DNA of 64,000 nt, from assembly GCF_000421265.1 (NCBI RefSeq), contig NZ_ATWN01000010.1, positions 1 to 64,000 of the forward strand. Reading direction: 5' to 3'. This document shows, one piece after another, positions 1,137 to 27,808 of the stretch. The number at the start of each line of letters is the position of its first letter. The first letter of the stretch is position 1. The notes beneath the pieces were generated by a model. It was given only the letters and a program-made list of their open reading frames with translations. It was not told where the DNA came from and searched no databases. Position numbers and translations under genes: made by a program. This stretch comes from Thalassospira lucentensis MCCC 1A00383 = DSM 14000. Lineage in GTDB: Bacteria > Pseudomonadota > Alphaproteobacteria > Rhodospirillales > Thalassospiraceae.

Positions 1137-2342
1137 ATGACATTTGATTTGATCATCGCATTAACCACACTTGCTGTCGGTGTGGTTTTGGTGCTGCCAC
1201 GTGTCGCCCATTTCACCCTTTGGCGCGCGGTTGTCACCCCGCTGGCTTCAATCATCGGCAGCGGGTTTTTGTTACTTGGCCCGGTTTTAAGCCATGCATT
1301 TGGCGGGTTTGCGCCATGGGTCATGGGTGGGCTCTGTGTTGTCGCCTACATGTTTGGCGGCGTCATCCGATCCAATATTGCGACAGGCGAAGACGCAATC
1401 ATCACAGGCCAGCACGGCACATTGGCCAAAAGGATTGAGACCATCTCATCCTGGGCCTTGGCATTTGCCTATATTATTTCTGTTTCCTATTACCTGAATT
1501 TACTCGGCGCCTTCGCGCTCAGCATGACACCGTTTGATAGCCGGTTTGACGCCAAACTTTTAACCACCGGCGTTTTCATCCTGATCGTTCTGATCGGCTG
1601 CACCAACGGCTTTAAAAGCCTCGAACGGATGGAATATTTTTCAGTCGCCATCAAACTGGCGATCATTGCCGGACTGGTGATTGGCTTGATTGTCAATTTT
1701 GGCGATCAGGCAATCCATGAAACGCTGATCTTTAACCCCGAAACCGTCACCGGTTGGCCGGCCATAACCATGGCGCTGGGGTTGCTGATCACCGTACAGG
1801 GGTTTGAAACGTCCCGATATCTTGGTGCGGTCTATGATGCGCAAACACGCATCCGGTCGATGCGTATGGCCCAATGGCTCTCGACCGTGATTTACGTGGT
1901 CTACATTGTCCTGATTGCCTATGTGTTTCGCCCCGACCAAATGTCGATGACCGAAACCGGCATCATCAATATGATGCAGATCGTCGCGCCGATTTTGCCC
2001 TTCTTGCTGGTTGCTGCCGCCCTGGCCTCACAGCTTAGTGCCGCCATCGCCGACACCAGCGGTTCGGGCGGATTGTTTACCGAACTGTCGCGCAATCGCA
2101 TCAGCGAACCACAGGCTTATTTCATTTTGGCCGTGATCGGGATTGCCCTGACATGGGCGGCCGACATTTTCGCAATTGTAAATTACGCCTCACGCGGGTT
2201 TGCCATCTATTACGGCCTGCAATCGGGGCTCGCCGCCGTTATTGCCATCAAACAGAAATCAGGTTTGCCCAAAGTCATCTGGTATCTGGCCCTTGCGACC
2301 CTTGGCGCAGCCATTGCGGTATTTGGCCAAACGATTGAGTAA
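1137..2342 (+). CDS. APC-superfamily-like multi-pass membrane protein
   Basis: A 401-residue, very hydrophobic protein with about 11 predicted membrane segments. The segment near residues 38-55 (ASIIGSGFLLLGPVLSHAFG) resembles the broken first helix of LeuT-fold/APC transporters, where the glycine-rich turn binds substrate. A similar helix containing VQGFETSRYLG (about residues 219-229) fits TM6 of that fold. This suggests a secondary transporter for an amino acid or similar solute, but the substrate is not readable from sequence. It converges with maeB and shares the intergenic terminator. The ribosome-binding site is weak, so the start is probable rather than certain. Confidence 0.7.
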   Translation: MTFDLIIALTTLAVGVVLVLPRVAHFTLWRAVVTPLASIIGSGFLLLGPVLSHAFGGFAPWVMGGLCVVAYMFGGVIRSNIATGEDAIITGQHGTLAKRIETISSWALAFAYIISVSYYLNLLGAFALSMTPFDSRFDAKLLTTGVFILIVLIGCTNGFKSLERMEYFSVAIKLAIIAGLVIGLIVNFGDQAIHETLIFNPETVTGWPAITMALGLLITVQGFETSRYLGAVYDAQTRIRSMRMAQWLSTVIYVVYIVLIAYVFRPDQMSMTETGIINMMQIVAPILPFLLVAAALASQLSAAIADTSGSGGLFTELSRNRISEPQAYFILAVIGIALTWAADIFAIVNYASRGFAIYYGLQSGLAAVIAIKQKSGLPKVIWYLALATLGAAIAVFGQTIE

Positions 2343-2383
2343 CCTCAAACGTTTGGCATCCAATTCCCACACCAAGCCGTCAT

Positions 2384-2419
2384 AAAAAATGGCGGGAATG
2401 CCTATGCACCCCCGCCATA
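2384..2419 (-). terminator. Rho-independent terminator of maeB
   Basis: A hairpin with arms ATGGCGGG and CCCGCCAT is followed, on the minus strand, by a run of T (plus-strand AAAAAA at 2384-2389). It lies between the converging ends of the membrane protein gene and maeB. Confidence 0.8.
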
Positions 2420-2442
2420 TTCAACCGTCGATCAATCCGGTC

Positions 2443-4710
2443 TTAGTTATGTTCGGCGTCATGTGCAGCAAGCGCTGCCAGATTAACCAGATCATTGACC
2501 GTTGCCCCCATCTGGGCAATCTGGGCCGGTTTTTCCAGCCCGATCATCACCGGACCAACCACCGTCCCACCGCCCAGCTTATCAAGAAGCTTGGACGCGG
2601 TCGTCGCCGCATGAAGGGCAGGCATCACCAGAACGTTTGCCGGACCCGACAGACGACAGAACGGATACAGCTTCAAAAGCTCGGTATCGAGCGCAACATC
2701 CACCGCCATATCGCCATCAAATTCGAAATCAACATTGCTGCGTTCAAGAATGCCAACCGCCTCACGGATACGGTCGGTATCTTCGCTGTACGGGTTGCCA
2801 AACGTCGAATGCGATACCAACGCTACACGCGGCTCATGACCAAGCTGACGGGCCTTCTCGGCCGCCTGAATGGCAATCTCGGCAAGCTGTTCGGCATTGG
2901 GCACATTATGCACGCGGGTATCGGCGATAAACACCGTCCGGCCCTTGGCAATCGCAATCGAAAGACCCATCGGGATTTCGCCTTCTTTGGCGTCAATCAC
3001 GCTGGCAATATCGGTAAAGCTGCGATTGAAGTTCCGGGTCAGCCCGGTGATCAACCCATCTGCATGCCCCTTTGCCACCATGACAGAAGCAAAAACGTTG
3101 CGTTTCTGGTTCACCATCCGCTGGCAATCGCGCCACAGATACCCTTTGCGCTGCAGGCGTTCATACACGAACTCGGCATATTCCGCATTGCGATCCGAAA
3201 GGGCCGCATTGCTGATTTCCACCCCTTCAAGCGTTTCAATGCCAAGGTTCTTGGCACTGGCATGAATGCGGTCTTCACGCCCGATCAGGATCGGCGTGCC
3301 ATAGCCCGAATTGCGATAGGCAACAGCAGCACGAATAACGGTTTCTTCTTCGCCCTCGGCAAAGGCGATCCGTTTGGGATGTGCGCGCACATAATCGGAA
3401 ATCAGCTGAAGATGTGCTGCCGTCGGATCAAGACGCCCGCGCAGCTGATTTTCATATTCCGCCATATCAATGATCGGACGACGCGCCACACCACTGTCCA
3501 TCGCGGCCTGTGCCACCGCCTTGGGGATTGCAATGATCAGGCGCGGGTCAAACGGGGCCGGAATGATGTATTCCGGACCATACTGCAAACGGCGCCCGGA
3601 ATAGGCCGCGGCCACCTCATCAGGCACATCTTCACGCGCCAGAGATGCCACCGCATGGGCTGCGGCAATTTTCATGTCCTCGTTGATGGTGGATGCCTGC
3701 ACATCAAGGGCACCACGGAAAATATATGGGAAACCCAGCACATTGTTGATCTGGTTGGGATAGTCCGAGCGCCCAGTGGCACAGATCGCGTCATCGCGGA
3801 TTGATGCAACTTCTTCCGGGCTGATTTCCGGGTCCGGGTTGGCCATGGCAAAAATGATCGGCTTTTTGGCCATGCTTTTGACCATCTTGGTCGTCACCGC
3901 CCCCTTGGCCGACAGACCAAAGAACGCATCCGCCCCATCCATCGCATCGTCAAGCGTGCGGGCATCGGTGTCGGCTGCGTGGGCTGATTTCCACTGGTTC
4001 ATGCCATCTTCGCGACCCTTATAAATCACGCCGCGCGTGTCACACATAATAACGTTATCGTGCGACACACCCATGCTTTTGACCAACTCGCAGCAGGCAA
4101 TCGCCGCCGCACCAGCGCCATTGATCACAAGCTTGATGTCTTTCAATTTGCGCCCGGTAAGGTCGCAGGCATTGATCAATCCCGATGCGGCAATGATCGC
4201 TGTGCCGTGCTGATCATCATGGAATACCGGAATATCCATGATTTCGCGCAGGCGTTGTTCAATGATGAAACATTCTGGCGCCTTGATGTCTTCAAGGTTA
4301 ATGCCGCCAAATGATGCGCCAAGGAAGCGCACGCAATTGACAAACTCGTCAACGTCTTCGGTCGAAACTTCAAGGTCGATGCCGTCAACATCGGCAAAGC
4401 GTTTGAACAAAACAGCCTTGCCTTCCATCACCGGCTTGGACGCCAGCGCGCCAAGGTTACCAAGGCCAAGAACGGCGGTGCCGTTGGAAATCACCGCAAC
4501 AATGTTGCCCTTGGAGGTATAATCATATGCCGTCGCCGGGTTCTTGGCGATTTCAAGACAGGGCACCGCAACACCCGGCGAATACGCCAGGGACAAATCG
4601 CGCTGAGTGGTCAGCGGCTTGGACGGCGTAATTTCGATTTTGCCCGGACGGCCGCTGGAATGAAACAGCAGCGCTTCGCGGTCGCGAACCTTGATTTCTG
4701 AATCTGACAT
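2443..4710 (-). CDS. maeB: NADP-dependent malic enzyme (malic enzyme-phosphotransacetylase fusion)
   Basis: A 755-residue protein with the two-domain layout of MaeB. Residues 1 to about 430 form the malic enzyme part: SLAYSPGVAVPC and FHDDQHGTAI motifs, and a Rossmann NAD(P) loop INGAGAAAIACCELV. Residues about 435-755 form a phosphotransacetylase-like domain that in this family is regulatory, typically responding to acetyl-CoA. It catalyses oxidative decarboxylation of malate to pyruvate with production of NADPH, in the cytoplasm, linking the TCA cycle to gluconeogenic and NADPH supply. Length is normal. It is monocistronic, with its own terminator downstream. Confidence 0.97.
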   Translation of the reverse strand: MSDSEIKVRDREALLFHSSGRPGKIEITPSKPLTTQRDLSLAYSPGVAVPCLEIAKNPATAYDYTSKGNIVAVISNGTAVLGLGNLGALASKPVMEGKAVLFKRFADVDGIDLEVSTEDVDEFVNCVRFLGASFGGINLEDIKAPECFIIEQRLREIMDIPVFHDDQHGTAIIAASGLINACDLTGRKLKDIKLVINGAGAAAIACCELVKSMGVSHDNVIMCDTRGVIYKGREDGMNQWKSAHAADTDARTLDDAMDGADAFFGLSAKGAVTTKMVKSMAKKPIIFAMANPDPEISPEEVASIRDDAICATGRSDYPNQINNVLGFPYIFRGALDVQASTINEDMKIAAAHAVASLAREDVPDEVAAAYSGRRLQYGPEYIIPAPFDPRLIIAIPKAVAQAAMDSGVARRPIIDMAEYENQLRGRLDPTAAHLQLISDYVRAHPKRIAFAEGEEETVIRAAVAYRNSGYGTPILIGREDRIHASAKNLGIETLEGVEISNAALSDRNAEYAEFVYERLQRKGYLWRDCQRMVNQKRNVFASVMVAKGHADGLITGLTRNFNRSFTDIASVIDAKEGEIPMGLSIAIAKGRTVFIADTRVHNVPNAEQLAEIAIQAAEKARQLGHEPRVALVSHSTFGNPYSEDTDRIREAVGILERSNVDFEFDGDMAVDVALDTELLKLYPFCRLSGPANVLVMPALHAATTASKLLDKLGGGTVVGPVMIGLEKPAQIAQMGATVNDLVNLAALAAHDAEHN

Positions 4711-5086
4711 TGTGTTTTCACTGACGCTTGCGTGGTGGGATGGAAAGCTGTGTGTAGTTCATTTCGTTCGACAAGTTTGCGGTGTGGGACCGCCTCATCG
4801 AACCGAACAATAAAACAGGCTTCGCGCCCATGGTCAAAGGCGACGTTAACGGCAACCGCAGAATTACGTAGCGTTTTCCGTATGTTGCGCCGCAGCAACC
4901 CTCTATTTGGGCAGGTCAGAACTGACCATCTCTTTGTATCCTCGCCGCCATAACAGACCGCATCAAGACAATGATCTGGCGGAATTATCGTTTTTTTTCA
5001 GTGCGATAATTACATCGCCCCCAACATCACCAACCTGATCCCGTTTTGCCAAGCAATACCGCCTTATGCGATCATTCCACAGAGTG
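4711..5086. other. Intergenic region upstream of maeB
   Basis: About 375 bases without a convincing gene. It should hold the maeB promoter and leader. A T-rich run (about 4990-4998) is visible. Short ORFs here have no ribosome-binding site or recognisable product. Confidence 0.5.
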
Positions 5087-5118
5087 AAAAAAGGCGACCA
5101 CCATGGGCCGCCTTTAAA
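5087..5118 (-). terminator. Rho-independent terminator of the stress-like gene
   Basis: A hairpin with arms AAAGGCG and CGCCTTT; on the minus strand the second arm runs into TTTTTT. It lies about 40 bases past the stop of the gene at 5160-5660. Confidence 0.75.
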
Positions 5119-5159
5119 ATCAGGATCGTTTTCAACTGTGCCTAACCTGCAATCGGGCG

Positions 5160-5660
5160 TTATTTTGCCTGATGCAGGTGGATGTTGGTCGCGCCATGCT
5201 TTTGCAAAATCGCCTGCGCAGCACTCTCACCGGTTTTATTGTCCGGGGCAATCCGCACCCACAGGATCACCGACCCGGCATCAATCGCACGGGCAAAATC
5301 ATCGATATGTGGGGTGGATGTGACTTCGCCGATAAATTCGCGCAGGGCCACCGCCCCAACACCAGCCCCCACCGCAATTGCCGCCGGCGCGGTTGCCGCC
5401 CCACCAAACAATGCAATCGCGCCCGATGCCACCAAGGGCACCTCATATTTGACTTCCCCGACAAGTGCTGTCAGCACATCACCCCATGATCGGCCGTCTG
5501 ATCCGGCGACATCAATCGATTCGTGGGAACTCAAAACCGAAAGATCCGTGCGCTTAAAACCGCTATCACGCAATTCGCGCACGGCCGCGTCAAAACTGTC
5601 TTTGGTGTCGAACAAACCTACCAGTTCCGGGGCCTGCGTCGTGGTCTGGTCTTCTGACAT
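5160..5660 (-). CDS. General-stress-type (YflT/DUF1269-like) protein with a glycine-rich hydrophobic stretch
   Basis: A 166-residue protein. Residues about 12-45 (ELVGLFDTKDSFDAAVRELR and following) have the ferredoxin-like pattern seen in YflT/general stress protein 17M-type domains, where a short beta strand is followed by a helix that senses spacing. A central Ala/Gly-rich hydrophobic segment (about residues 73-105) could be a membrane hairpin. The start is set by a strong AAGGAG 8 bases before the ATG at 5660; an upstream in-frame ATG at 5687 lacks such a site. The biochemical role is unknown; family naming is tentative. Confidence 0.65.
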   Translation of the reverse strand: MSEDQTTTQAPELVGLFDTKDSFDAAVRELRDSGFKRTDLSVLSSHESIDVAGSDGRSWGDVLTALVGEVKYEVPLVASGAIALFGGAATAPAAIAVGAGVGAVALREFIGEVTSTPHIDDFARAIDAGSVILWVRIAPDNKTGESAAQAILQKHGATNIHLHQAK

Positions 5661-8812: not shown

Positions 8813-11551
8813 ATGTATAAAATCAAGAAACAGCGCGAAATCATTGACCGCAAAAAGGTCTTTGCCGATCTCACGGCAATTGCCAATGATCCCGATCTGA
8901 ATAACTTCAAACAGCGCAGCGCCCTTCTGACCAAGCTGAAATCGGTGATGGAAAGCGGACGTGACGTCATCCGTACGCGGTTCGAAGAAAGCAATTCCGG
9001 GCAGGACACCGTCTTTTCCAACAGCTTCCTGATGGATCAGATTGTCCGCCTTATCCATGATTTCGCCACCAATTTTATCTATCCGCTGCACAATCCGACC
9101 AATGAACAACGCATGTCAGTGGTCGCGGTCGGCGGCTATGGCCGGGGCGATATGGCGCCGCATTCCGATGTCGATATCCTGTTTCTGTTTCCCTACAAAC
9201 AAACCGCCAATGGCGAACAGGTGGTCGAGTTCATCCTCTATATGCTGTGGGATCTTGGCCTGAAGGTCGGCCATGCGACCCGATCAGTTGATGATTGCCT
9301 GCGCATGGGCAAACAGGACATCACCATCCGCACCAACCTGCTCGAAAGCCGGTTCGTCTGGGGCGATGAGGAAACCTATAACGTCTTTCGTGCGCGCTTC
9401 ATGGATGAGCTGGTCAAGGGCAGCGGCATTGAGTTTATTGAAAAGAAACTCGGCGAACGCGATGACCGCCATGTGCGCATGGGCGATTCACGCTATGTGG
9501 TTGAACCCAATGTTAAGGACGGCAAAGGCGGCTTGCGCGATCTGCATACGCTGTTTTGGATTGGCAAATATCTGTACCGCGTCAATTCCCCGATGGAACT
9601 GGTTGACCTTAAAGTCCTGACCCGCAAGGAAGCTCAGGGGTTTTTAAAAGCCCAGAACTTCCTGTGGGCCGTGCGCTGCTGGCTGCATTATCTGTCAGAT
9701 CGCGAAGAAGACCGTCTGACGTTCGACATGCAGCGCGATATCGCCGAACACCTTGGCTACACCGATCATGCCGGGGCATCGGGCGTCGAACGGTTCATGA
9801 AACACTACTATCTGATGGTCAAACATGTCGGCAACCTGACCCGGATTTTCTGTGCCGCGTTGGAAGAACGCCATCAGCGCCGCCCGCTGATCCGGTTTCC
9901 CGGCAAACTGTTTGGCACCAAGGAAATCAACGGGTTTGAGCTGCGCAATGACCGGCTAACGGTTGAAAACCTCAATGTTTTCAAAAAAGACCCGATCAAG
10001 ATTTTGCGCCTGTTTCTGGTGGCCAATCAAAACGGGGTCGGCATTCATCCCGAAACGCTGCGCTGGGTCACCCAAAGTTTAAAACATATCGATCACAAGC
10101 TGCAAAACGACCCGGACGCCAATGAGGTTTTCCTTGAAATCCTCACCCAGCGTCAAAACCCCGACATTGTCCTTCGTAAAATGAACGAAGCCGGGGTGCT
10201 CGGGCGATTTATCCCTGATTTCGGCCGTGTCGTGGCGCAAATGCAATACGACATGTACCACACCTATACCGTGGATGAGCACACCATCCGCGCGATTGGC
10301 GTGCTCAATCAGATTGAAAATGGCGAACTGGTCGATGATGCGCCGGTGGCCACCCGGATCATGGGCAAGGTGATTTCACGGCGTGTACTTTATGTCGCAG
10401 TTTTGCTGCATGATATCGCCAAGGGACGGGGCGGCGATCATTCCGAACTGGGGGCTGAAGTCGCCGAAAAGCTCTGCCCGCGTCTGGGATTATCCCCCGC
10501 CGACAGCGAAACCGTCGCATGGCTGGTCAAGGCCCACCTGTGGATGAGCCTGACGGCGTTTAAACGTGACCTCAATGATCCGACGACGATCAAGGCATTT
10601 GGCGATCTGGTACAATCGCAGGAACGGTTGCGCCTGTTGCTGTGTCTTACCGTCGCCGATATCCGGGCAGTGGGACCAAATGTCTGGAATGGCTGGAAAG
10701 CCACCCTTCTGCGCGAACTTTATTATGCTGCCGAGGATCGCCTGTCAGGCGGGCTTAATGCCGACAGCCGCGATTCGCGCGTTGCCAATGCCCAGATGGC
10801 GCTCCGCGAAGCACTGGTCGACTGGCCAACCGATGACATCGAAGATTTCATTGATCGCGGTTATCCGTCCTATTGGCTCAGTTTTGATACCGACGTTCAC
10901 GTTCATCACGCCCATCTGACCCGCGACGCCAAGAAAAGCGGCGCTGACATCACGGTCGATGTGCGCATTGATACTGAAATTGACGCCACCGAAATCACCG
11001 TTCACACCACCGACCATCCGGGGCTGTTTTCCCAGATTGCCGGGTCAATGGCGCTGTGCGGGGCGAATATTGTCGATGCAAAAATCCTGACACTGGCCGA
11101 TGGCATGGCGCTTGATACCTTCTTTATTCAGGATGCCAACGACGAAGCCTTTAACGACAAGGCCAAGCTTGAAAAGCTGCGTGAAACCCTCGAACAGGTG
11201 ATTTCCGGGCGCGTACGCCCCAGTCAGGAACTCGAACGCCGCCAGATCAAGGATAACAAACACAGAACCGCGGTCTTTAAGGTCGAACCCAATGTCATTA
11301 TCGACAACAAGGCCAGCCGCACCCACACAGTGATTGAAATTTCCGCCCGCGACCGCCAAGGATTGCTCTATGACATCACCCGTGCTTTGCGTGATCTGTC
11401 ATTGCAAATCGCCTCGGCCCGCATTTCGACATTTGGCGAACGCGCAGTGGACGTTTTCTATGTGAAGGATGTGTTCGGGCTTAAAATCGACAGCCGCACC
11501 AAGTTTGTGCAGGTCAAGGAAACCCTTAATCAGGCGATCCAGAATAATTAG
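8813..11551 (+). CDS. glnD: Bifunctional [protein-PII] uridylyltransferase/uridylyl-removing enzyme
   Basis: A 912-residue protein with the full GlnD layout. The nucleotidyltransferase domain shows GGYGRGDMAPHSDVD near residues 105-119, with the metal-binding DxD. The HD hydrolase domain shows VLLHDIAKGRGGDH near residue 530. Two C-terminal ACT domains begin near residues 726 (TVHTTDHPGLFSQIAG) and 841 (VIEISARDRQGLLYDI); these sense glutamine. It uridylylates PII proteins under nitrogen limitation and reverses this under excess, and so controls glutamine synthetase and Ntr regulation. All catalytic motifs appear intact. Confidence 0.97.
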   Translation: MYKIKKQREIIDRKKVFADLTAIANDPDLNNFKQRSALLTKLKSVMESGRDVIRTRFEESNSGQDTVFSNSFLMDQIVRLIHDFATNFIYPLHNPTNEQRMSVVAVGGYGRGDMAPHSDVDILFLFPYKQTANGEQVVEFILYMLWDLGLKVGHATRSVDDCLRMGKQDITIRTNLLESRFVWGDEETYNVFRARFMDELVKGSGIEFIEKKLGERDDRHVRMGDSRYVVEPNVKDGKGGLRDLHTLFWIGKYLYRVNSPMELVDLKVLTRKEAQGFLKAQNFLWAVRCWLHYLSDREEDRLTFDMQRDIAEHLGYTDHAGASGVERFMKHYYLMVKHVGNLTRIFCAALEERHQRRPLIRFPGKLFGTKEINGFELRNDRLTVENLNVFKKDPIKILRLFLVANQNGVGIHPETLRWVTQSLKHIDHKLQNDPDANEVFLEILTQRQNPDIVLRKMNEAGVLGRFIPDFGRVVAQMQYDMYHTYTVDEHTIRAIGVLNQIENGELVDDAPVATRIMGKVISRRVLYVAVLLHDIAKGRGGDHSELGAEVAEKLCPRLGLSPADSETVAWLVKAHLWMSLTAFKRDLNDPTTIKAFGDLVQSQERLRLLLCLTVADIRAVGPNVWNGWKATLLRELYYAAEDRLSGGLNADSRDSRVANAQMALREALVDWPTDDIEDFIDRGYPSYWLSFDTDVHVHHAHLTRDAKKSGADITVDVRIDTEIDATEITVHTTDHPGLFSQIAGSMALCGANIVDAKILTLADGMALDTFFIQDANDEAFNDKAKLEKLRETLEQVISGRVRPSQELERRQIKDNKHRTAVFKVEPNVIIDNKASRTHTVIEISARDRQGLLYDITRALRDLSLQIASARISTFGERAVDVFYVKDVFGLKIDSRTKFVQVKETLNQAIQNN

Positions 11552-12098
11552 GACCACACGCACTAAATGCAGGGTCAGGGCATCAAGGCGACCGTCAGGA
11601 TCATTGTCCTGACGGGTCCCGCTCGACCGGTTTGATCCCCACTCCTGTGCCACGCAAGGTGACACCCCAGAAAGGATCAAATCCAGTCGAACTGGTCGAC
11701 TATTTTTAAGCGCGTATCTTTTGGAATTTTAGACGGACGGGGAAGGGCAATCCAAAACTGACGTCGTGACCTGTTATTCACGACATCGCTTTCCTCGGAG
11801 TGCAGCAGGTTAAGGTGGACTCCCTTATAATCCCCGACCATCCAAATAATGAGGCTCGCGTCCCAACGAATCTCAGCAAGAGGGAACTTATCGTTATTGA
11901 ATGCATTTTTCTGTGACGGTCGTCACAGTTGTGAAAATGAATCATTCGCAACAACAGGTTTCATATTTTTGTGACATTGACGCCGCCCCAGATCGCCCTT
12001 GATTACGACTTCTTCACTTTCCCCTGTCAGATTTCCCCATGCCAATACTGGTCCGATACCAGGCCGATACCGGCTCCTTGAAACGGATTAAACACGCA
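11552..12098. other. glnD-murJ intergenic region with nested inverted repeats
   Basis: About 550 bases without a gene. A perfect hairpin CGTCAGGA/TCCTGACG lies at 11593-11614. An outer helix pairs TTTGATCC (11631-11638) with GGATCAAA (11674-11681). AGTCGA/TCGACT (11685-11701) is followed by ATTTTT and may be a weak terminator of glnD. GTCGTG/CACGAC pairs at 11763-11784. The rest should hold the murJ promoter. No RNA family is recognised. Confidence 0.45.
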
Positions 12099-13658
12099 AT
12101 GTCGCTTGTACGCTCCATCGCCACCGTCAGTGGCTTTACCCTGATCTCGCGCCTTTTGGGGTTCTGTCGTGATATCCTGATTGCCGGGATGTTGGGTGCA
12201 GGTGGCATTGCCGATGCGTTTTTTGTCGCGTTTAAATTTCCCAACCTGTTTCGCCGCCTGTTTGGCGAAGGCGCATTTTCCGCCGCCTTCATCCCGCTTC
12301 TGGCCGGGGACATCGAAAAACGCGGACTTGATGTCGCACGTGAATTTGCCGCACGCGCCATGTCGATGCTGGTGCTCATCACCGGTTTTCTGGTCGCGAT
12401 CATTGAAATCATCATGCCGTGGGCGATGTATGTCTTTGCCCCCGGATTTGCCGAAGACCCGGAAAAATTCGCGCTTGCTGTCGAACTGTCGCGCATCACC
12501 TTCCCCTATCTGGCATTTATTTCCGCCGTCGCCCTGATGTCGGGTGTTCTCAACACCTTGCACCGCTATGCCGCTGCTGCTGCGGCCCCGATTGTCCTGA
12601 ACATCTGTCTGATTGGCGCGCTGCTGGGTCTGACACCCATGACCGAAACGCCTGCCCATGCGTTGGCGTGGGGCGTTGCCTTGGCCGGGGTGGCGCAATT
12701 TATCTTTCTGGTGATTGCCTGCAAACGTGCCGGATTTGCGATTAAATGGCAGCTTCCCAAAATTGATGACCGGGTCAAACTGCTCGGCAAACGCATGATC
12801 CCGGGCATGATTGGTGCCGGGGTGTATCAGATCAACCTTTTGATCGATACCATGCTGGCCTCTCTTGTGTCTGACGGCGCGGTATCGTGGCTGTATTACG
12901 CCGACCGGGTTCAACAACTGCCATTAGGCGTGATTGGCATTGCGATTGGCACGGCCCTGCTGCCCACCCTGTCGCGCCAGTTACAGGGAACCGATCCCGC
13001 AGTTGCCATGTACAGCCAAAATCGCGGCATTGAAATCGCCCTGCTTCTGACCCTGCCCGCGGCCGTTGCCCTTGGCGTGATGGGCATTCCGGTGATCAAT
13101 GTTCTGTTTGAACGCGGTGCCTTTGGTCCCGATGAAACCCTGATGACCGGTCTGGCGCTGACTATTTTTGCCTTTGGCCTGCCGGCATCGGTTCTGGTTA
13201 AAGTCCTCGCGCCGGGCTTTTTCGCCCGCGAAGATACCAAAACCCCGATCCGCATTGGCATCTTTGCCATGGTGCTCAACATTGTTCTGATCATTGTTTT
13301 AATGCCGCAATTCGGGCATTTGGGCATTGCCGCGGCCACATCGACCTCGGTCTGGGTCAATGCATTTTTACTGGGCTATTTATTGCGCAAACGCGGCGAT
13401 TTGACCTTTGATGCCCGGTTGCTTAAACGCGTCCCGCGCATTCTGATCACCTCGGCCCTGATGGGGGCGGCCCTTTGGTTTGCCATTGATATGTTCTGGC
13501 AAAATGATGCCTCCTCAATCACGCGCATCTTGATCATGGCCGCCTGTGTCTGTGGTGGAATTGCGGTGTACGCGCTAAGCGCACAGCTGCTCGGTGCGAC
13601 CAGCTTCCCGGAACTCAAAGCAACCTTGAAGCGCGGAAAACCCGCCTCACAGGAATAA
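12099..13658 (+). CDS. murJ: Lipid II flippase MurJ (MviN)
   Basis: A 519-residue polytopic membrane protein with about 14 membrane segments. The N-terminus MSLVRSIATVSGFTLISRLL and the FFVAFKFPNLFRRLFGEGAF region are characteristic of MurJ; the positively charged cavity residues lie in this part. It flips the peptidoglycan precursor lipid II across the inner membrane. An upstream in-frame ATG at 12039 would add 20 residues, but family members start at the position chosen. It lies directly upstream of trpS, an arrangement common in alphaproteobacteria. Confidence 0.96.
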   Translation: MSLVRSIATVSGFTLISRLLGFCRDILIAGMLGAGGIADAFFVAFKFPNLFRRLFGEGAFSAAFIPLLAGDIEKRGLDVAREFAARAMSMLVLITGFLVAIIEIIMPWAMYVFAPGFAEDPEKFALAVELSRITFPYLAFISAVALMSGVLNTLHRYAAAAAAPIVLNICLIGALLGLTPMTETPAHALAWGVALAGVAQFIFLVIACKRAGFAIKWQLPKIDDRVKLLGKRMIPGMIGAGVYQINLLIDTMLASLVSDGAVSWLYYADRVQQLPLGVIGIAIGTALLPTLSRQLQGTDPAVAMYSQNRGIEIALLLTLPAAVALGVMGIPVINVLFERGAFGPDETLMTGLALTIFAFGLPASVLVKVLAPGFFAREDTKTPIRIGIFAMVLNIVLIIVLMPQFGHLGIAAATSTSVWVNAFLLGYLLRKRGDLTFDARLLKRVPRILITSALMGAALWFAIDMFWQNDASSITRILIMAACVCGGIAVYALSAQLLGATSFPELKATLKRGKPASQE

Positions 13659-22008: not shown

Positions 22009-23040
22009 TTAGAAGTCGAGACGCAGACCGGTTACAACGCCGTAGCCGTCATTGTCGCCGCTGATGCCGCTGGTAGCAGAATTGTTGGTGCTGTCTGCTT
22101 CCTGGTCAAACCAATAGACAGAAGATTTCCAAGTCACGCCTGCACCAAGGGTGTAAGCCATGCCGAGGTCAACCGTGCTGATATCACCGCTGTTGTCAAC
22201 TTCTTCGTAACCATAGCCCAAGGACACGGTTGCTGCGTCCATCGCATAGGAAACACCAAGGTCAAACGCATCGAGGTCTTGGTTGGTAGCGTTCAGACCG
22301 TAGTCGTCTTCGGTGTGACCATAAGAACCACCAACGGTGAAGTTGCCAAAGCCAACAGTCGAACCAAGACCGTACCAGTAACCGTCTTCAGAATGTTCGC
22401 CGGTGGCAGAAAGACCAAGAGCAACACCGTTGAAGTCATGATCAAAGGCAAGTGCACCAGAAACGATGCTATCACCGCCGCCGTCTGTGCCATTGTAGCT
22501 GTTGCTACCATTGCGCTGGCTGTCGTCAGCATACGACGCACCGGCACGGAAACCACCGAAGGACGGGGTGAAGTAGCTAACGCGGTTCTGATCGCCACTC
22601 GAACGGATGGTATCGATCAAATATGCATCGACCCAGTTTGACAAATCACCATCGTTGACGCCAACCGGACCAACCGACGGTGCCCGCAGAGCCATTGAGT
22701 CAGCTGCACTGTCGTTCTTACCCATTTCGATGCGACCAAAGCCACCGTTTACGAACAGGTACTGTTCGTCAATCTGATCGCCAGAGGTTTCGCCTTCGAG
22801 CTCGATTTTGGCACCAACTTCAATGCCGTTATCAAGGGTGGTTTTGCCCGAGAAGTAAACTTCGGTATCGGACTGGAATGCATTGTTACGGCCACCTGAC
22901 GGAGTGTTGTCCTGGTCAGAGAAACCAGCCCACTGTTCCATGTAACCACCAACTTCAAGCTGGATTTTTTCGGACGCCTGTGCGGAACCGGCAAAAGCAA
23001 CGGCGGCGAGTGCGCTGGAAGCAAAAAGAATCTTTTTCAT
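22009..23040 (-). CDS. Outer-membrane porin (paralogue 1)
   Basis: A 343-residue protein with an N-terminal signal peptide (MKKILFASSALAAVAFAGSA, cleavage after AQA) and a mature part made of alternating Gly/aromatic/acidic beta strands ending in a C-terminal Phe (GLRLDF), the outer-membrane insertion signal. This fits the 16-strand general porin family of alphaproteobacteria. It shares the N-terminal GGYMEQWxGFxDQDN and the TLDNGIEVGAKIELEGE segment with the second porin at 23687-24751, so the two are paralogues. A GAGGG ribosome site precedes ATG 23040. Its promoter overlaps a palindrome. Confidence 0.94.
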   Translation of the reverse strand: MKKILFASSALAAVAFAGSAQASEKIQLEVGGYMEQWAGFSDQDNTPSGGRNNAFQSDTEVYFSGKTTLDNGIEVGAKIELEGETSGDQIDEQYLFVNGGFGRIEMGKNDSAADSMALRAPSVGPVGVNDGDLSNWVDAYLIDTIRSSGDQNRVSYFTPSFGGFRAGASYADDSQRNGSNSYNGTDGGGDSIVSGALAFDHDFNGVALGLSATGEHSEDGYWYGLGSTVGFGNFTVGGSYGHTEDDYGLNATNQDLDAFDLGVSYAMDAATVSLGYGYEEVDNSGDISTVDLGMAYTLGAGVTWKSSVYWFDQEADSTNNSATSGISGDNDGYGVVTGLRLDF

Positions 23041-23686: not shown

Positions 23687-24751
23687 TTAGAAGGAAAGAG
23701 CAAGACCGGTAACAGCGCCGTAACCTTCGTTATCGGCAACACCAGCAAGGTCACGCTCGTTCTCGAACCAGAATACCGAGGATTTCCAGCTCACACCAGC
23801 ACCGAGGGTGTAAGCAAGACCCAAGTGAACATGGTCCAAAGTAGATTCGCCACGGCTCGTTACGGTGCCAGCAGCATTGGTGATGGTAGCACCACCTTCG
23901 TCTTCACCGTGGAAGTAGGTCAGGGTCACTTCAGCGGCATCCATGCTGTAGCCAACACCAAAATCATAACCGTCGGTTGCGCGGTTGGTTGCGCCAACAC
24001 CAGCATTGTACTCGTCATTGGCTGCACCGTAAGAACCGCCAACAGAGAACGCACCGAAGCCAACATTGGCACCGACATGGTAGTTACGACCATCGTCCGA
24101 ATCGCCTTCGGCCATACCGGAAACTTTGATCGAAACCGCATCGAAATCGCCGATATATTCAACGCCGGCTGCATAACGTGAATCGCCGCCGTTTGCCGTG
24201 TCGTTGTTTTCCGAGGTATCGTCATCGGTGTAGGAAAGACCAGCGCGGAAACCGCCAAGAACCGGGGTGTAATAGGTGACTTTCTTGGCATCGCTGTAGC
24301 CATAGATGTTGGCCTTAACGTTGCCATCAATGTCAACCCAGTTACCCAGATCGCCATCCTGTGCGTTAACCGGACCGGTCGACGGTGCGATGGTCAGCAT
24401 GTCGGTCTGCGGGCCATCTTCAGCACCAAGCTTGACTTGGCCAAAGCCACCATTGACGTACAGGTACTGTTCGTCAACCATGGTGCCGGAGTTGCCGCCT
24501 TCACCTTCGAGTTCGATTTTAGCACCAACTTCGATGCCGTTATCGAGCGTGGTCGAACCCGAGAAGTGAACTTCGGTGTCAGACTGGAAAGCGTTCGGAC
24601 GACCGCCAGCAGCATAATTGTCCTGATCAGCAAAACCCATCCACTGTTCCATGTAACCACCAACCGAAAGGCTGATTTTTTCGGAAGCCGAAGCCTGGCC
24701 TGCGAATGCGACAGCGACGAGTGCGCTGGAAGCAACAAGAATCTTTTTCAT
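23687..24751 (-). CDS. Outer-membrane porin (paralogue 2)
   Basis: A 354-residue porin with signal peptide MKKILVASSALVAVAFAGQA and a C-terminal beta strand ending in Phe (GLALSF). Its architecture is the same as that of the neighbouring porin 1, with the closest similarity in the first 80 residues and the last strands, and variable loops between. ATG 24751 is preferred because GAGGG lies 5-7 bases upstream; a TTG four codons earlier is the other option. It forms channels for small hydrophilic solutes in the outer membrane. Tandem porin pairs of this kind commonly arise by duplication. Confidence 0.94.
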   Translation of the reverse strand: MKKILVASSALVAVAFAGQASASEKISLSVGGYMEQWMGFADQDNYAAGGRPNAFQSDTEVHFSGSTTLDNGIEVGAKIELEGEGGNSGTMVDEQYLYVNGGFGQVKLGAEDGPQTDMLTIAPSTGPVNAQDGDLGNWVDIDGNVKANIYGYSDAKKVTYYTPVLGGFRAGLSYTDDDTSENNDTANGGDSRYAAGVEYIGDFDAVSIKVSGMAEGDSDDGRNYHVGANVGFGAFSVGGSYGAANDEYNAGVGATNRATDGYDFGVGYSMDAAEVTLTYFHGEDEGGATITNAAGTVTSRGESTLDHVHLGLAYTLGAGVSWKSSVFWFENERDLAGVADNEGYGAVTGLALSF

Positions 24752-24860
24752 CTTTTCCCTCAACGTCTTTGCAAGCGTTTTACGCTACAAAAATTATTTG
24801 GACAGCTTATGCCGCCCGGTTCGAGAAGCATGGAGCCATCAAACGATCGCACCGTCAAGC

Positions 24861-24899
24861 AACACTGTGTCCAAAATGATACATTGATCAAACACTGTG
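24861..24899. repeat. Direct repeat AACACTGTG, 30-base period
   Basis: AACACTGTG occurs at 24861-24869 and 24891-24899, with a start-to-start distance of 30 bases (about three helical turns). It lies in the divergent promoter region between porin 2 and the DUF3576 gene, just upstream of the predicted -35 at 24924. An operator role is inferred. Confidence 0.4.
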
Positions 24900-24923
24900 G
24901 CACAAAAAGCACACCGGTTTTCT

Positions 24924-24952
24924 TTGATCACAAACCCGATCCGCCCTATATT
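24924..24952 (+). promoter_or_regulatory. Predicted sigma-70 promoter of the DUF3576-lptE-holA operon
   Basis: TTGATC (24924-24929), a 17-base spacer and TATATT (24947-24952) lie 40 bases before the first start codon at 24992. Confidence 0.6.
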
Positions 24953-24991
24953 CGCAGAAATTTTGCATCACAATGATCTTAAAGGCCGGAA

Positions 24992-25555
24992 ATGGTGACC
25001 TTTTCTTCGTTCAAATCTTTGGTCCTTGGCGTCGGATTCGCCGTAGTATTGGCGGGCTGTTCTTCAAGCTCTGTCGATTATGACCAGTTCCCCGGATCAG
25101 CAAACTCAAACGAGCGTGTAAATGGTCGCACCATGACCCGTGCGCAGGAGAACGAACAAGGTACCATCTTTGGTGACGGTCTAAACCTGTTTGGCGGCGA
25201 GGATTCCAAGAAAGGCACCGGATCGGGCATCGGCGTAAACAGCTTCTTATGGCGTGCGACACTCGACACCCTGTCCTTTATGCCTCTTAACTCAGCCGAT
25301 CCGTTTGGCGGGGTGATCATTACCGACTGGTACACGCCCGGTGAAACGCCAAATGAGCGGTTCAAGCTGACGGCTTATATCCTTGGCACAGCCCTTCGGT
25401 CGGACGCGATTAAGGTTTCGGTTTTCCGCCAAGTCAATGTCGGCCCCAATCAGTGGCAGGATGCCGTGGTCGAACCGGGTACAGTCACATCGATGGAAGA
25501 CGCCATCCTCACCCGCGCCCGCCAGTTGCGAATCGATAGCGCAACCGCCGAGTAG
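24992..25555 (+). CDS. DUF3576 domain lipoprotein
   Basis: A 187-residue protein with a lipoprotein signal (lipobox LAGC, Cys23) and a DUF3576 body: SFLWRATLDTLSFMPLNSADPFGGVIITDWY and the ERFKLTAYILGTALRSDAIKVSVFR region are typical. The function is unknown. In alphaproteobacteria this gene usually precedes leuS, lptE and holA, which suggests a link to outer-membrane assembly. Here it is followed four bases later by a LeuS-like remnant, then lptE and holA, so the operon order is kept. A promoter is predicted at 24924-24952. Confidence 0.93.
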   Translation: MVTFSSFKSLVLGVGFAVVLAGCSSSSVDYDQFPGSANSNERVNGRTMTRAQENEQGTIFGDGLNLFGGEDSKKGTGSGIGVNSFLWRATLDTLSFMPLNSADPFGGVIITDWYTPGETPNERFKLTAYILGTALRSDAIKVSVFRQVNVGPNQWQDAVVEPGTVTSMEDAILTRARQLRIDSATAE

Positions 25556-25559
25556 GCTG

Positions 25560-26243
25560 ATGGACGATACCTCTTTATATATATCGCCTGAATACAACCC
25601 CCATTCGCTGATACGCGATTGGGGGTTCTTCGTTGAACAGCAACGCCCCGATATATATGCAGCACTTTCCGGACCACTTAGCCCCCTGCGCCAGACACTT
25701 GCCGCCTCCATTACCACAATGGCAGGCGGAGAGTTTGTCGCAACCCCGACCACTTCGGGAAAAGTCACCACGGATTTTGTTGTACCAGATGCCCGAACGA
25801 TGTGTCAGGAAGTCGGTCTTGATGTCCTCACCCTTGCCTTGCTGGCAGATGTCCCGCTGCACAGACCGCTTCAAATCACACAAAACGCTCTGATTGGCCA
25901 TTGGCGCTGGCTGCGTCTGGTCTGGCGTACATTGGCTGATGCAAAACCCGCAACCAGATGCGTTGACACAATGCCAGCGACACCCAAAAGCACCTTTGCC
26001 ACACTATATCCGGCACTGGTGGCAGGACGGAGTAACGTTGCCATCGCCAATCTTCGAACAATGTTTCAAAACCTGACAGCTCATTACGAGACAGAAAGTG
26101 TGCAAAACAGCCTCCCAGAAAGCCAGGATGCCCTTCATTCTTTCCTTGCCAATCTCACTCTGTTTTGCCCTTTTATCGGTTACGACCTATTGTGTCGCCA
26201 CGGTCTGATGAAAGCTCCTTGGATAAAAGGTTCTATCGAATGA
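25560..26243 (+). CDS. Truncated leucyl-tRNA synthetase-like protein lacking the catalytic core
   Basis: A 227-residue ORF at the position where leuS sits in related genomes. Residues about 67-122 align by eye with the LeuS stretch from after KMSKS into the anticodon-binding domain: VVPDARTMCQEVGLDVLTLA matches the DP-x-M-x-E-x-YGAD-x-x-RLF pattern, and GHWRWLRLVWRTL matches GA-x-RF-x-x-R-x-WRLV. Residues 148-162 (SNVAIANLRTMFQNL) and 203-221 (CPFIGYDLL ... APW) match later LeuS helices. YNP and Trp21 near the N-terminus resemble the LeuS start. HIGH, the editing domain, KMSKS and the C-terminal tail are missing (LeuS is about 860 residues), so it cannot be an active synthetase. The frame is intact, four bases after DUF3576 and overlapping lptE by ATGA. 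Codon use is looser than its neighbours (ATA, GGA). It could be a decaying remnant or a repurposed RNA-binding protein. Confidence 0.75.
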   Translation: MDDTSLYISPEYNPHSLIRDWGFFVEQQRPDIYAALSGPLSPLRQTLAASITTMAGGEFVATPTTSGKVTTDFVVPDARTMCQEVGLDVLTLALLADVPLHRPLQITQNALIGHWRWLRLVWRTLADAKPATRCVDTMPATPKSTFATLYPALVAGRSNVAIANLRTMFQNLTAHYETESVQNSLPESQDALHSFLANLTLFCPFIGYDLLCRHGLMKAPWIKGSIE

Positions 26244-26749
26244 AATTGCGCGCCCTTTTCCCGGTAATCACCATGGTTGCCCTGATGTCTCTGAGTGCCT
26301 GCGGCTTTCGCCCGCTCTATGCAGAAGATCGCAGTGGACAAAGCACGACAACCGATATGTCACAGGTTGAGGTCAGCTTGATCAATGACCGTGTTGGTCA
26401 AATAACGCGCAATCTTTTGATCGAAACCCTCACACCCCGTGGTCAAGTTACCAACCCGGCCTACACATTGGATGTCAAAGTATCCGAGTCGACCAGCGAA
26501 CAGGGCTTTACCAAAGACAACGAAGCGACAATTGCCGACTATTTGCTTGAAGCAACCTATCAACTAACCCGCAAGTCCGACGCCACACTGTTGCGTCAGG
26601 GCTTCGTAAGGGCACGCACTAGTTACAACATCGTCGATTCGGACTTCGCCAGCCTCGAAGCAGAAAAAGCCGCCCGTCGTGACGCCGCGCGCAATCTGGC
26701 ACAGCAAATCGCCAATCAGGTTGCGGTTGGCCTGCGCGCCATTCCGTAA
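26240..26749 (+). CDS. lptE: LPS-assembly lipoprotein LptE
   Basis: A 169-residue lipoprotein: lipobox LSAC with Cys21, then the family signature CGFRPLY. It plugs the LptD barrel that inserts lipopolysaccharide into the outer membrane. The start ATG overlaps the stop of the LeuS-like ORF (ATGA), implying translational coupling. holA follows after 27 bases. Length and C-terminal helix (AARRDAARNLAQQIANQV) are typical. Confidence 0.95.
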   Translation: MKLRALFPVITMVALMSLSACGFRPLYAEDRSGQSTTTDMSQVEVSLINDRVGQITRNLLIETLTPRGQVTNPAYTLDVKVSESTSEQGFTKDNEATIADYLLEATYQLTRKSDATLLRQGFVRARTSYNIVDSDFASLEAEKAARRDAARNLAQQIANQVAVGLRAIP

Positions 26750-26776
26750 GGCCTCTCTGGAAGACATATCTGATCC

Positions 26777-27808
26777 ATGAAACTCAAGGCAGCCCAGGTC
26801 GAAACCTTTCTCCGTGCGCCCGACGCCAAGGCACAGCTCGTGCTGATCTATGGCGAGGACGAAGGTCTTGTGCGCGAACGCGCAGTAAAGCTTGCCAAAA
26901 CCGTGGTCGAAGACCTCAAGGATCCTTTTCGGGTAATCGAAATGGGCAGTGCCCAGCTTAAAGAAGACAGCAGCCGCCTGCGCGACGAAGCCGCCGCCAT
27001 CAGCTTTGGCGGCGGACGCCGTGTCATCCGGCTCCGCGACATTGGCGATGCACAGGCACCGGCAATTGCCGACTTCCTCAAAGACCCTGCGGGTGACGCG
27101 CTGATCGTGATCGAAGCCGGCAGTTTACCATCCCGTTCCAAATTGCGTCAGGCGGTTGAAAAGGCCGGTAACGGCATGGCGCTGCCGTGCTATGCTGACA
27201 GCGGCCGCGACCTTGAAGGTCTGATCAGTGCGGTGATGGAGGATCACAAACTGCGCATTGACCGCGACGCCACCCGTTATCTGGTCGCCAATCTTGGTTC
27301 GGACCGCATGATATCGCGAAGCGAGCTTGAAAAACTCGCCCTTTATGCGCTCAAGGACGGTCAGGTCACACTGGCCGATGCGATGGATTGCGTTGGCGAC
27401 AGCTCAGCCCGCCACTATGACGATGTCATTCAAGCTGTTTCGCAGGGCAATGTCGTCAATCTCGACACGGCCCTCACCCGCCTCACCGAAGAAGGCCTCA
27501 ATCCGGTTGGCGCGCTTCGCATGATGCTCGGATATTTCCAGAAACTACATCTGGTTAAGGGACAGATCACCCAAGGAGCCAATACGGAACAGGCAATGAA
27601 ATCCCTGCGCCCGCCGCTGTTTTTCAAGGCCGCCGATCAGTTCCGGGCCAATCTGAACAATTGGGCCGTTCCAACCTTGCAACGCGCGCTGCAAATCCTG
27701 CTCGAGGCCGAAAAAGACTGCAAAAGTGGTCTTGCCGTTCCTGAAACCATCGCGCACCGTGCCATGATCAAAATCGCCGTCGCCCGGCAAAAGCAGGCAC
27801 GTCGCTAA
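26777..27808 (+). CDS. holA: DNA polymerase III subunit delta
   Basis: A 343-residue clamp-loader delta subunit. The N-terminal LVLIYGEDEGLVRERA is the degenerate AAA+ start typical of HolA; SFGGGRRVIRLRD and the C-terminal helical collar (EEGLNPVGALRMMLGYFQKLHLVK) also match. It opens the beta sliding clamp. It is the last gene of the DUF3576 operon and converges with parB. Confidence 0.95.
   Translation: MKLKAAQVETFLRAPDAKAQLVLIYGEDEGLVRERAVKLAKTVVEDLKDPFRVIEMGSAQLKEDSSRLRDEAAAISFGGGRRVIRLRDIGDAQAPAIADFLKDPAGDALIVIEAGSLPSRSKLRQAVEKAGNGMALPCYADSGRDLEGLISAVMEDHKLRIDRDATRYLVANLGSDRMISRSELEKLALYALKDGQVTLADAMDCVGDSSARHYDDVIQAVSQGNVVNLDTALTRLTEEGLNPVGALRMMLGYFQKLHLVKGQITQGANTEQAMKSLRPPLFFKAADQFRANLNNWAVPTLQRALQILLEAEKDCKSGLAVPETIAHRAMIKIAVARQKQARR

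Follow-up and report, generated by a model that had tools for sequence, protein, structure and literature searches.

The open reading frame (ORF) of 227 residues between a DUF3576 gene and lptE in Thalassospira lucentensis MCCC 1A00383 (= DSM 14000) raises the question of what became of leucyl-tRNA synthetase (LeuS, LeuRS) at this place: whether the ORF is a remnant of leuS in decay or a protein which this marine genus has kept. A sequence-only reading had offered both, a young remnant that is decaying and retained for coupling alone and a repurposed non-catalytic protein, and the comparisons reported here favor the latter. They were made with the window, which is the whole stretch of 64,000 nucleotides analyzed, and with genomes of the genus, the order and the class. 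The features of the locus are summarized in Table 1.

Table 1. Coordinates of the ORF, its neighbors and its parts within the window
Feature	Coordinates	Strand	Basis
LeuS-derived, putatively non-catalytic protein, 227 aa	25560..26243	+	sequence, profile searches, predicted fold
DUF3576 protein, upstream neighbor	24992..25555	+	PF12100, E 1.8e-42
lptE, downstream neighbor	26240..26749	+	LptE PF04390, E 3.2e-6
holA	26777..27808	+	name from gene order; adjoins lptE in relatives, conserved
ATGA stop/start overlap of ORF and lptE	26240..26243	+	present in 21/29 genus genomes
Residues 74-217, matching native LeuS profile 625-778 of 860 (post-KMSKS and anticodon-binding helical bundle)	25779..26210	+	hhalign, PDB profile search, Foldseek
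Residues 66-70, columns aligned to KMSKS, signature lost	25755..25769	+	alignment with 24 native LeuS
Residues 12-21, YNPHSL..(R)DW, conserved N-terminal motif; resemblance to LeuS N-terminus not significant alone	25593..25622	+	alignment
Residues 115-122, WRWLR..W	25902..25925	+	W115, R116, W122 common to native LeuS; W117, R119 invariant, ORFs only
Residues 202-206, FCPFI	26163..26177	+	F202, C203 invariant in ORFs only; P204 common to native LeuS

The ORF and its relationship to LeuS

The ORF starts with ATG at 25560 and stops with TGA at 26241-26243 on the (+) strand; its length and its ATGA overlap with lptE are as first read. The gene order in the window is DUF3576-ORF-lptE-holA. Both the ORF and this order were found in all 29 genomes of the genus searched, the own genome included, and a protein of Thalassospira lohafexi is 94% identical. 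The presence of the short form in the slot in all 29 genus genomes excludes an assembly deletion, which the earlier reading had named as a case that would speak against it. In the 16 nt that precede the start, an AGG was counted by eye for 17 of the 29 genomes. Judged from this AGG and the ATGA overlap, translation of the ORF may be coupled to that of DUF3576 and lptE. No known RNA element reached the gathering score in 24700-26900. Just upstream of the operon, two adjacent Porin_4 proteins with similar N-termini are encoded at 22009-23040 (-) and 23687-24763 (-).

When searched alone, the window protein matched NCBIfam leuS_bact weakly (E 0.0082, 14.3 bits, profile positions 615-755 of 843), did not reach the curated cut-off of TIGR00396 (548.4) and matched no Pfam family. 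A family profile was built from the 29 ORF members of the genus (alignment A1). Searched against the PDB, it found the LeuRS of T. thermophilus (E 2.2e-8) and E. coli (E 1.6e-6). Compared with native alphaproteobacterial LeuS by hhalign, a profile check that had been proposed from the sequence, it matched the post-KMSKS and anticodon-binding part with a probability of 96.9 (E 1.5e-10, 134 columns), the remaining two stretches reported having a probability below 1%. It also matched full LeuS frames in other families of the order (best E 9.6e-15). In place of the three segments aligned by eye with LeuS (residues 67-122, 148-162 and 203-221), the homology covers one continuous stretch of about residues 74-217. 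The N-terminal YNP..W, said to recall the LeuS N-terminus, lines up with it by position only, without significance (hhalign E 0.23; 3.9 bits in the PDB profile search).

Native alphaproteobacterial LeuS (TIGR00396) has about 870 aa with catalytic core, editing domain, KMSKS and C-terminal tail. As had been noted, the HIGH/Rossmann part, the editing domain, KMSKS and the tail have no counterpart in the ORFs by hhalign and by alignment with native LeuS. The columns of residues 66-70 read K/M/S/K/S at 96-100% in the 24 native LeuS, a signature lost in all 29 ORFs. Among the features of a functional LeuS as defined by TIGR00396, the anticodon-binding helical body is present, while HIGH/Rossmann, editing, KMSKS and the score are lacking.

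Structure prediction, likewise proposed as a check, agreed. The AlphaFold model of the window protein (pLDDT 84.0, pTM 0.84) gave moderate Foldseek matches (best E 6.9e-5, TM over query about 0.5, rmsd 5.8-11.5), with LeuRS as 49 of the 50 PDB matches listed and MetRS as the 50th. For the model of a divergent member (L033; pLDDT 88.6, pTM 0.87), all 50 PDB matches listed are LeuRS. A search for viral relatives by fold found none at E <= 0.001, the first six matches being class I tRNA ligases (E 0.037-0.48). Descent of the ORF from LeuS is well supported by these comparisons.

The native slot and the long-type LeuS

Among 317 genomes of the order, 94 matched the family profile, namely the 29 genus members and 65 others. 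The match lies in a frame of at least 637 aa in 64 of these 65 (in G056 within a long-type LeuS) and in a frame of 69 aa in one. From the 65, 24 loci with a native-type LeuS were chosen for comparison of the slot. In 22 of them, all from other families, a full LeuS fills it in the order DUF3576-leuS-lptE-holA; therefore the ORF occupies the native leuS slot, as had been claimed. The two exceptions end at a contig end (L076) or are without a DUF3576 match (L077). In one of the 22, L074 (G267), leuS and lptE lie about 2 kb apart (3352-5406), unlike in the other loci examined. An ordinary alphaproteobacterial leuS in this slot, between DUF3576 and lptE, is well supported for the ancestor of the genus.

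Standalone relatives of the ORF were not recognized in the 288 non-genus genomes of the 317 of the order or in the 383 non-genus genomes of the 385 of the class, the latter being a sample that overlaps the order set in part. This absence is not strict, because at most 9 (order) or 7 (class) candidates per genome were scored, and 223 and 319 genomes, respectively, were without any match. Short frames outside the genus are those of G457 (178 aa, ending at a contig end), G087 (69 aa, E 0.0053), G365 (546 aa) and G589 (424 aa). Plasmid records contained no relatives of the ORF at E 1e-3.

The full leuS that had been expected elsewhere was located: each of the 29 genus genomes has one long-type LeuS outside the slot, in a frame of 1002-1108 aa in 28 of them and split over two frames in G020 (88% complete). 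These proteins are 81-97% identical to the copy of the window genome, whereas the ORF proteins are 31-94% identical to that of the window. They share the homologous helical region with the ORF (family profile E 6e-9 to 6e-8, 12 of the 29 genomes). No second, native LeuS was seen in any of the 29 genomes among the matches listed (down to about E 9e-18), and a native LeuS used as query against five of them found the long LeuS and no other.

A gene that flanks the long leuS (in the own genome it encodes DUF5610) recurs as a counterpart in each of the 10 other loci compared, which suggests that the long leuS was acquired once, ancestrally. Near the long leuS on contig C4 of the own genome (L009), an 824-aa DUF4062/HEAT-repeat protein is encoded at 1402-3876 (-) and a 1092-aa KAP P-loop NTPase at 9264-12542 (+). 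Neither gene has a counterpart in the fetched stretches of the 10 other long-leuS loci; the spot is variable and possibly defense-like.

Few genomes outside the genus carry the long type. In the order it was recognized by identity and coverage in G056 only; G073, G078 and G204 also pass E 1e-100, with 41-42% identity over residues 223-1000 and frames of 854-861 aa. In the class, 7 of the 385 genomes carry it at E 1e-110. From this distribution, the long LeuS would have come from outside. Among plasmid records, the two best matches to it are actinobacterial (Nocardia and Tsukamurella, 48% over 99% of the query), and rhizobial matches start only from about residue 220. G056, from another family of the order, keeps a native leuS in the slot and has a long-type leuS elsewhere (L139, L098), which represents a transitional state or contamination.

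The native leuS appears to have been displaced by the long-type version in the genus. From the distribution, a long-type leuS of another kind would have been gained elsewhere in the genome and have taken over leucylation. It is well supported that the native gene lost its Rossmann/HIGH and editing parts, KMSKS and the tail at the C-terminus, and that the anticodon-binding helical body stayed behind as an ORF of the operon.

An outside comparison is available in another family, where two genomes, G337 and G468, each 87% complete, have a long-type LeuS with 50-52% identity; that of G468 is divided between two contigs, and one of its pieces contains a stop. A native LeuS was not found in either genome, and the DUF3576 frame leads directly into the lptE frame with no remnant between them (L157, L158). 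Displacement can therefore leave an empty slot, and coupling needs no ORF. This arrangement was seen in two of seven long-type genomes outside the order, the other five having given no DUF3576.

Selection, possible role and alternative origins

None of the 29 genus ORFs has an internal stop. The nucleotide difference from the window is 0.39-0.57 for 27 of the 28 relatives and 0.05 for the closest. In a neutral simulation at 0.5 substitutions per site, 3 of 2000 frames stayed open, a comparison in which the 29 ORFs share ancestry and are not independent trials. Alignment A1 contains 32 invariant columns, the start Met included, between variable linkers; within the N-terminal motif N13, P14, H15, L17 and W21 are invariant in all 29 ORFs.

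The pooled dN/dS of the ORF is 0.31 (7 disjoint pairs). By region it is 0.11 in residues 76-125, 0.19 in 188-216, 0.31 in 7-25 and 154-172, 0.47 in the linker 26-65 and 0.61 in the tail. The neighbor genes are under tighter constraint, with median dN/dS of 0.09, 0.10 and 0.04 compared to 0.32 for the ORF. These values refer to the 23 pairs with an ORF dS <1, the medians requiring dS >0.05 (22/21/21/23 pairs, overlapping), and the neighbor genes were taken as best tblastn pieces, some of which are not whole genes. The close trio L027/L028/L031 has dN/dS 0.83-1.05 at dS 0.04-0.07.

Apart from this trio, the open frames and the pooled dN/dS do not agree with a decaying pseudogene, which was rejected. 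The young remnant of the sequence-only reading is contradicted in addition by the constraint in residues 76-125 and by the empty slots of G337 and G468, and the proposed comparison of dN/dS and conservation in the genus favors its other option, a repurposed non-catalytic protein. That purifying selection kept the short protein through the genus is well supported. As far as maintenance can be judged from sequence, the two marks of an aaRS-like protein, synthetase descent and maintenance as a protein, are present.

The same residue is found at 90% or more, in the ORFs as in native LeuS, at G86, D88, L92, L95, D97, P99, R102, W115, R116, W122, N159, A161, A163, R166, P204, E209 (D in the window) and G215. 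Ten positions are conserved at 97-100% in the ORFs and are other or variable in native LeuS: V98, P103, W117, R119, F169, F195, F202, C203, L211 and R213. Residues whose conservation is confined to the ORFs are for the most part aromatic, hydrophobic or Cys. Because the shared columns are kept, KMSKS is lost and new residues are fixed, a kept fold with a changed job would fit these data; the short protein probably has a new job.

It is established for LeuRS that the retained segment lies on the side of the enzyme that faces the tRNA. The most favored explanation, with about an even chance, is displacement of the native leuS and retention of its helical body as a binding protein without catalysis, perhaps an adapter for tRNA-Leu or RNA. 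The step by which the old tRNA-Leu-facing helical body would have become such a binding protein falls somewhat short of even. Its target would probably be tRNA-Leu or a tRNA-like RNA held for a partner, with the long LeuS, an enzyme that modifies tRNA or the mRNA of the protein itself as candidates. The full form of this proposal, in which displacement and not duplication turned the tRNA-binding body into a separate adapter for tRNA-Leu (or RNA), present across the genus and with residues fixed anew, is tentative; by extension, the incoming enzyme possibly requires the protein in order to work with the tRNA-Leu set of the host.

The median pI of the ORF proteins is 6.71, not basic, and this near-neutral value together with the ORF-only residues would suit a protein partner equally well. 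Given this pI and the fixation of aromatic residues in the ORFs, it is possible, if rather doubtful, that the LeuS body was repurposed for protein-protein contact without any RNA role. The surface formerly packed against the lost catalytic domain would then bind a partner, the long LeuS or another protein. W117, R119, F169, F195, F202 and C203, invariant in the ORFs and not native residues, accord with such contact; retention of the tRNA-facing side speaks against it.

A relaxed remnant that mainly couples translation of DUF3576 and lptE, its sequence mattering little, would account for the ATGA overlap in 21 of the 29 genomes, the variable linkers and a dN/dS above that of the neighbors. It is improbable in view of the 32 invariant columns and the low dN/dS in residues 76-125, the 8 genomes without the overlap, and the direct passage from DUF3576 into lptE in G337 and G468.

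The native LeuS profile scores best for 24 of the 29 ORFs, while five (L034-L038) are matched better by the profile made from other long-type LeuS. In the tree, a long branch carries the ORFs as a single clade (100/100), and the long LeuS form a separate clade (100/99) without ORFs. Alignment A2 contains 20 of the 29 ORFs. A constraint of native LeuS to one clade was not rejected (p-AU 0.371); the tree thus gives no placement of the ORFs within native LeuS, and synteny, the slot being that of native leuS, decides for the native origin. An origin of the ORF as a partial copy of the long-type LeuS, inserted into the slot, could explain the five ORFs that prefer the other profile and a native clade apart from ORFs and long type; it is very unlikely given the slot, the profile preference of the majority and the exclusion of the ORFs from the long clade. 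An unrelated helical protein resembling LeuS by chance, which would be in line with the weak single-sequence matches and the lack of one in Pfam, is rejected as extremely unlikely by the agreement of profile, profile-profile, fold and synteny.

Comparison with known LeuRS relatives

The open-licence literature, outside which most subscription journals lie, yielded no paper on leucyl-tRNA synthetase with Thalassospira and, among the matches listed, no description of such a LeuS-derived protein, which is no proof of novelty. LeuRS relatives without normal charging are treated in PMC9437257: aminoacylation is lost in LeuRS-I of Sulfolobaceae and strongly reduced in LeuRS2 of haloarchaea, with tRNA-Leu binding reported as retained. 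Those proteins are described there as second LeuRS copies, whereas the present ORF is the helical body alone in the slot of the displaced gene. Transfer and duplication of LeuRS in haloarchaea are described in PMC3436685, and PMC7373986 is a general aaRS review.

DALRD3, named for an anticodon-binding domain, helps the modifying enzyme METTL2 to recognize particular arginine tRNAs, according to PMC7237682. It is a human protein with another domain name and is likened to the ORF by mechanism only.

Across the genus, the locus exemplifies the apparent displacement of an essential gene whose old copy was kept as a small, putatively non-catalytic protein. Together with the family in which a long-type LeuS accompanies an empty slot, it allows a test of whether the body of a synthetase, once free of catalysis, acquires functions after displacement. 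If true, the adapter proposal would describe a route to aaRS-like proteins via displacement rather than duplication.
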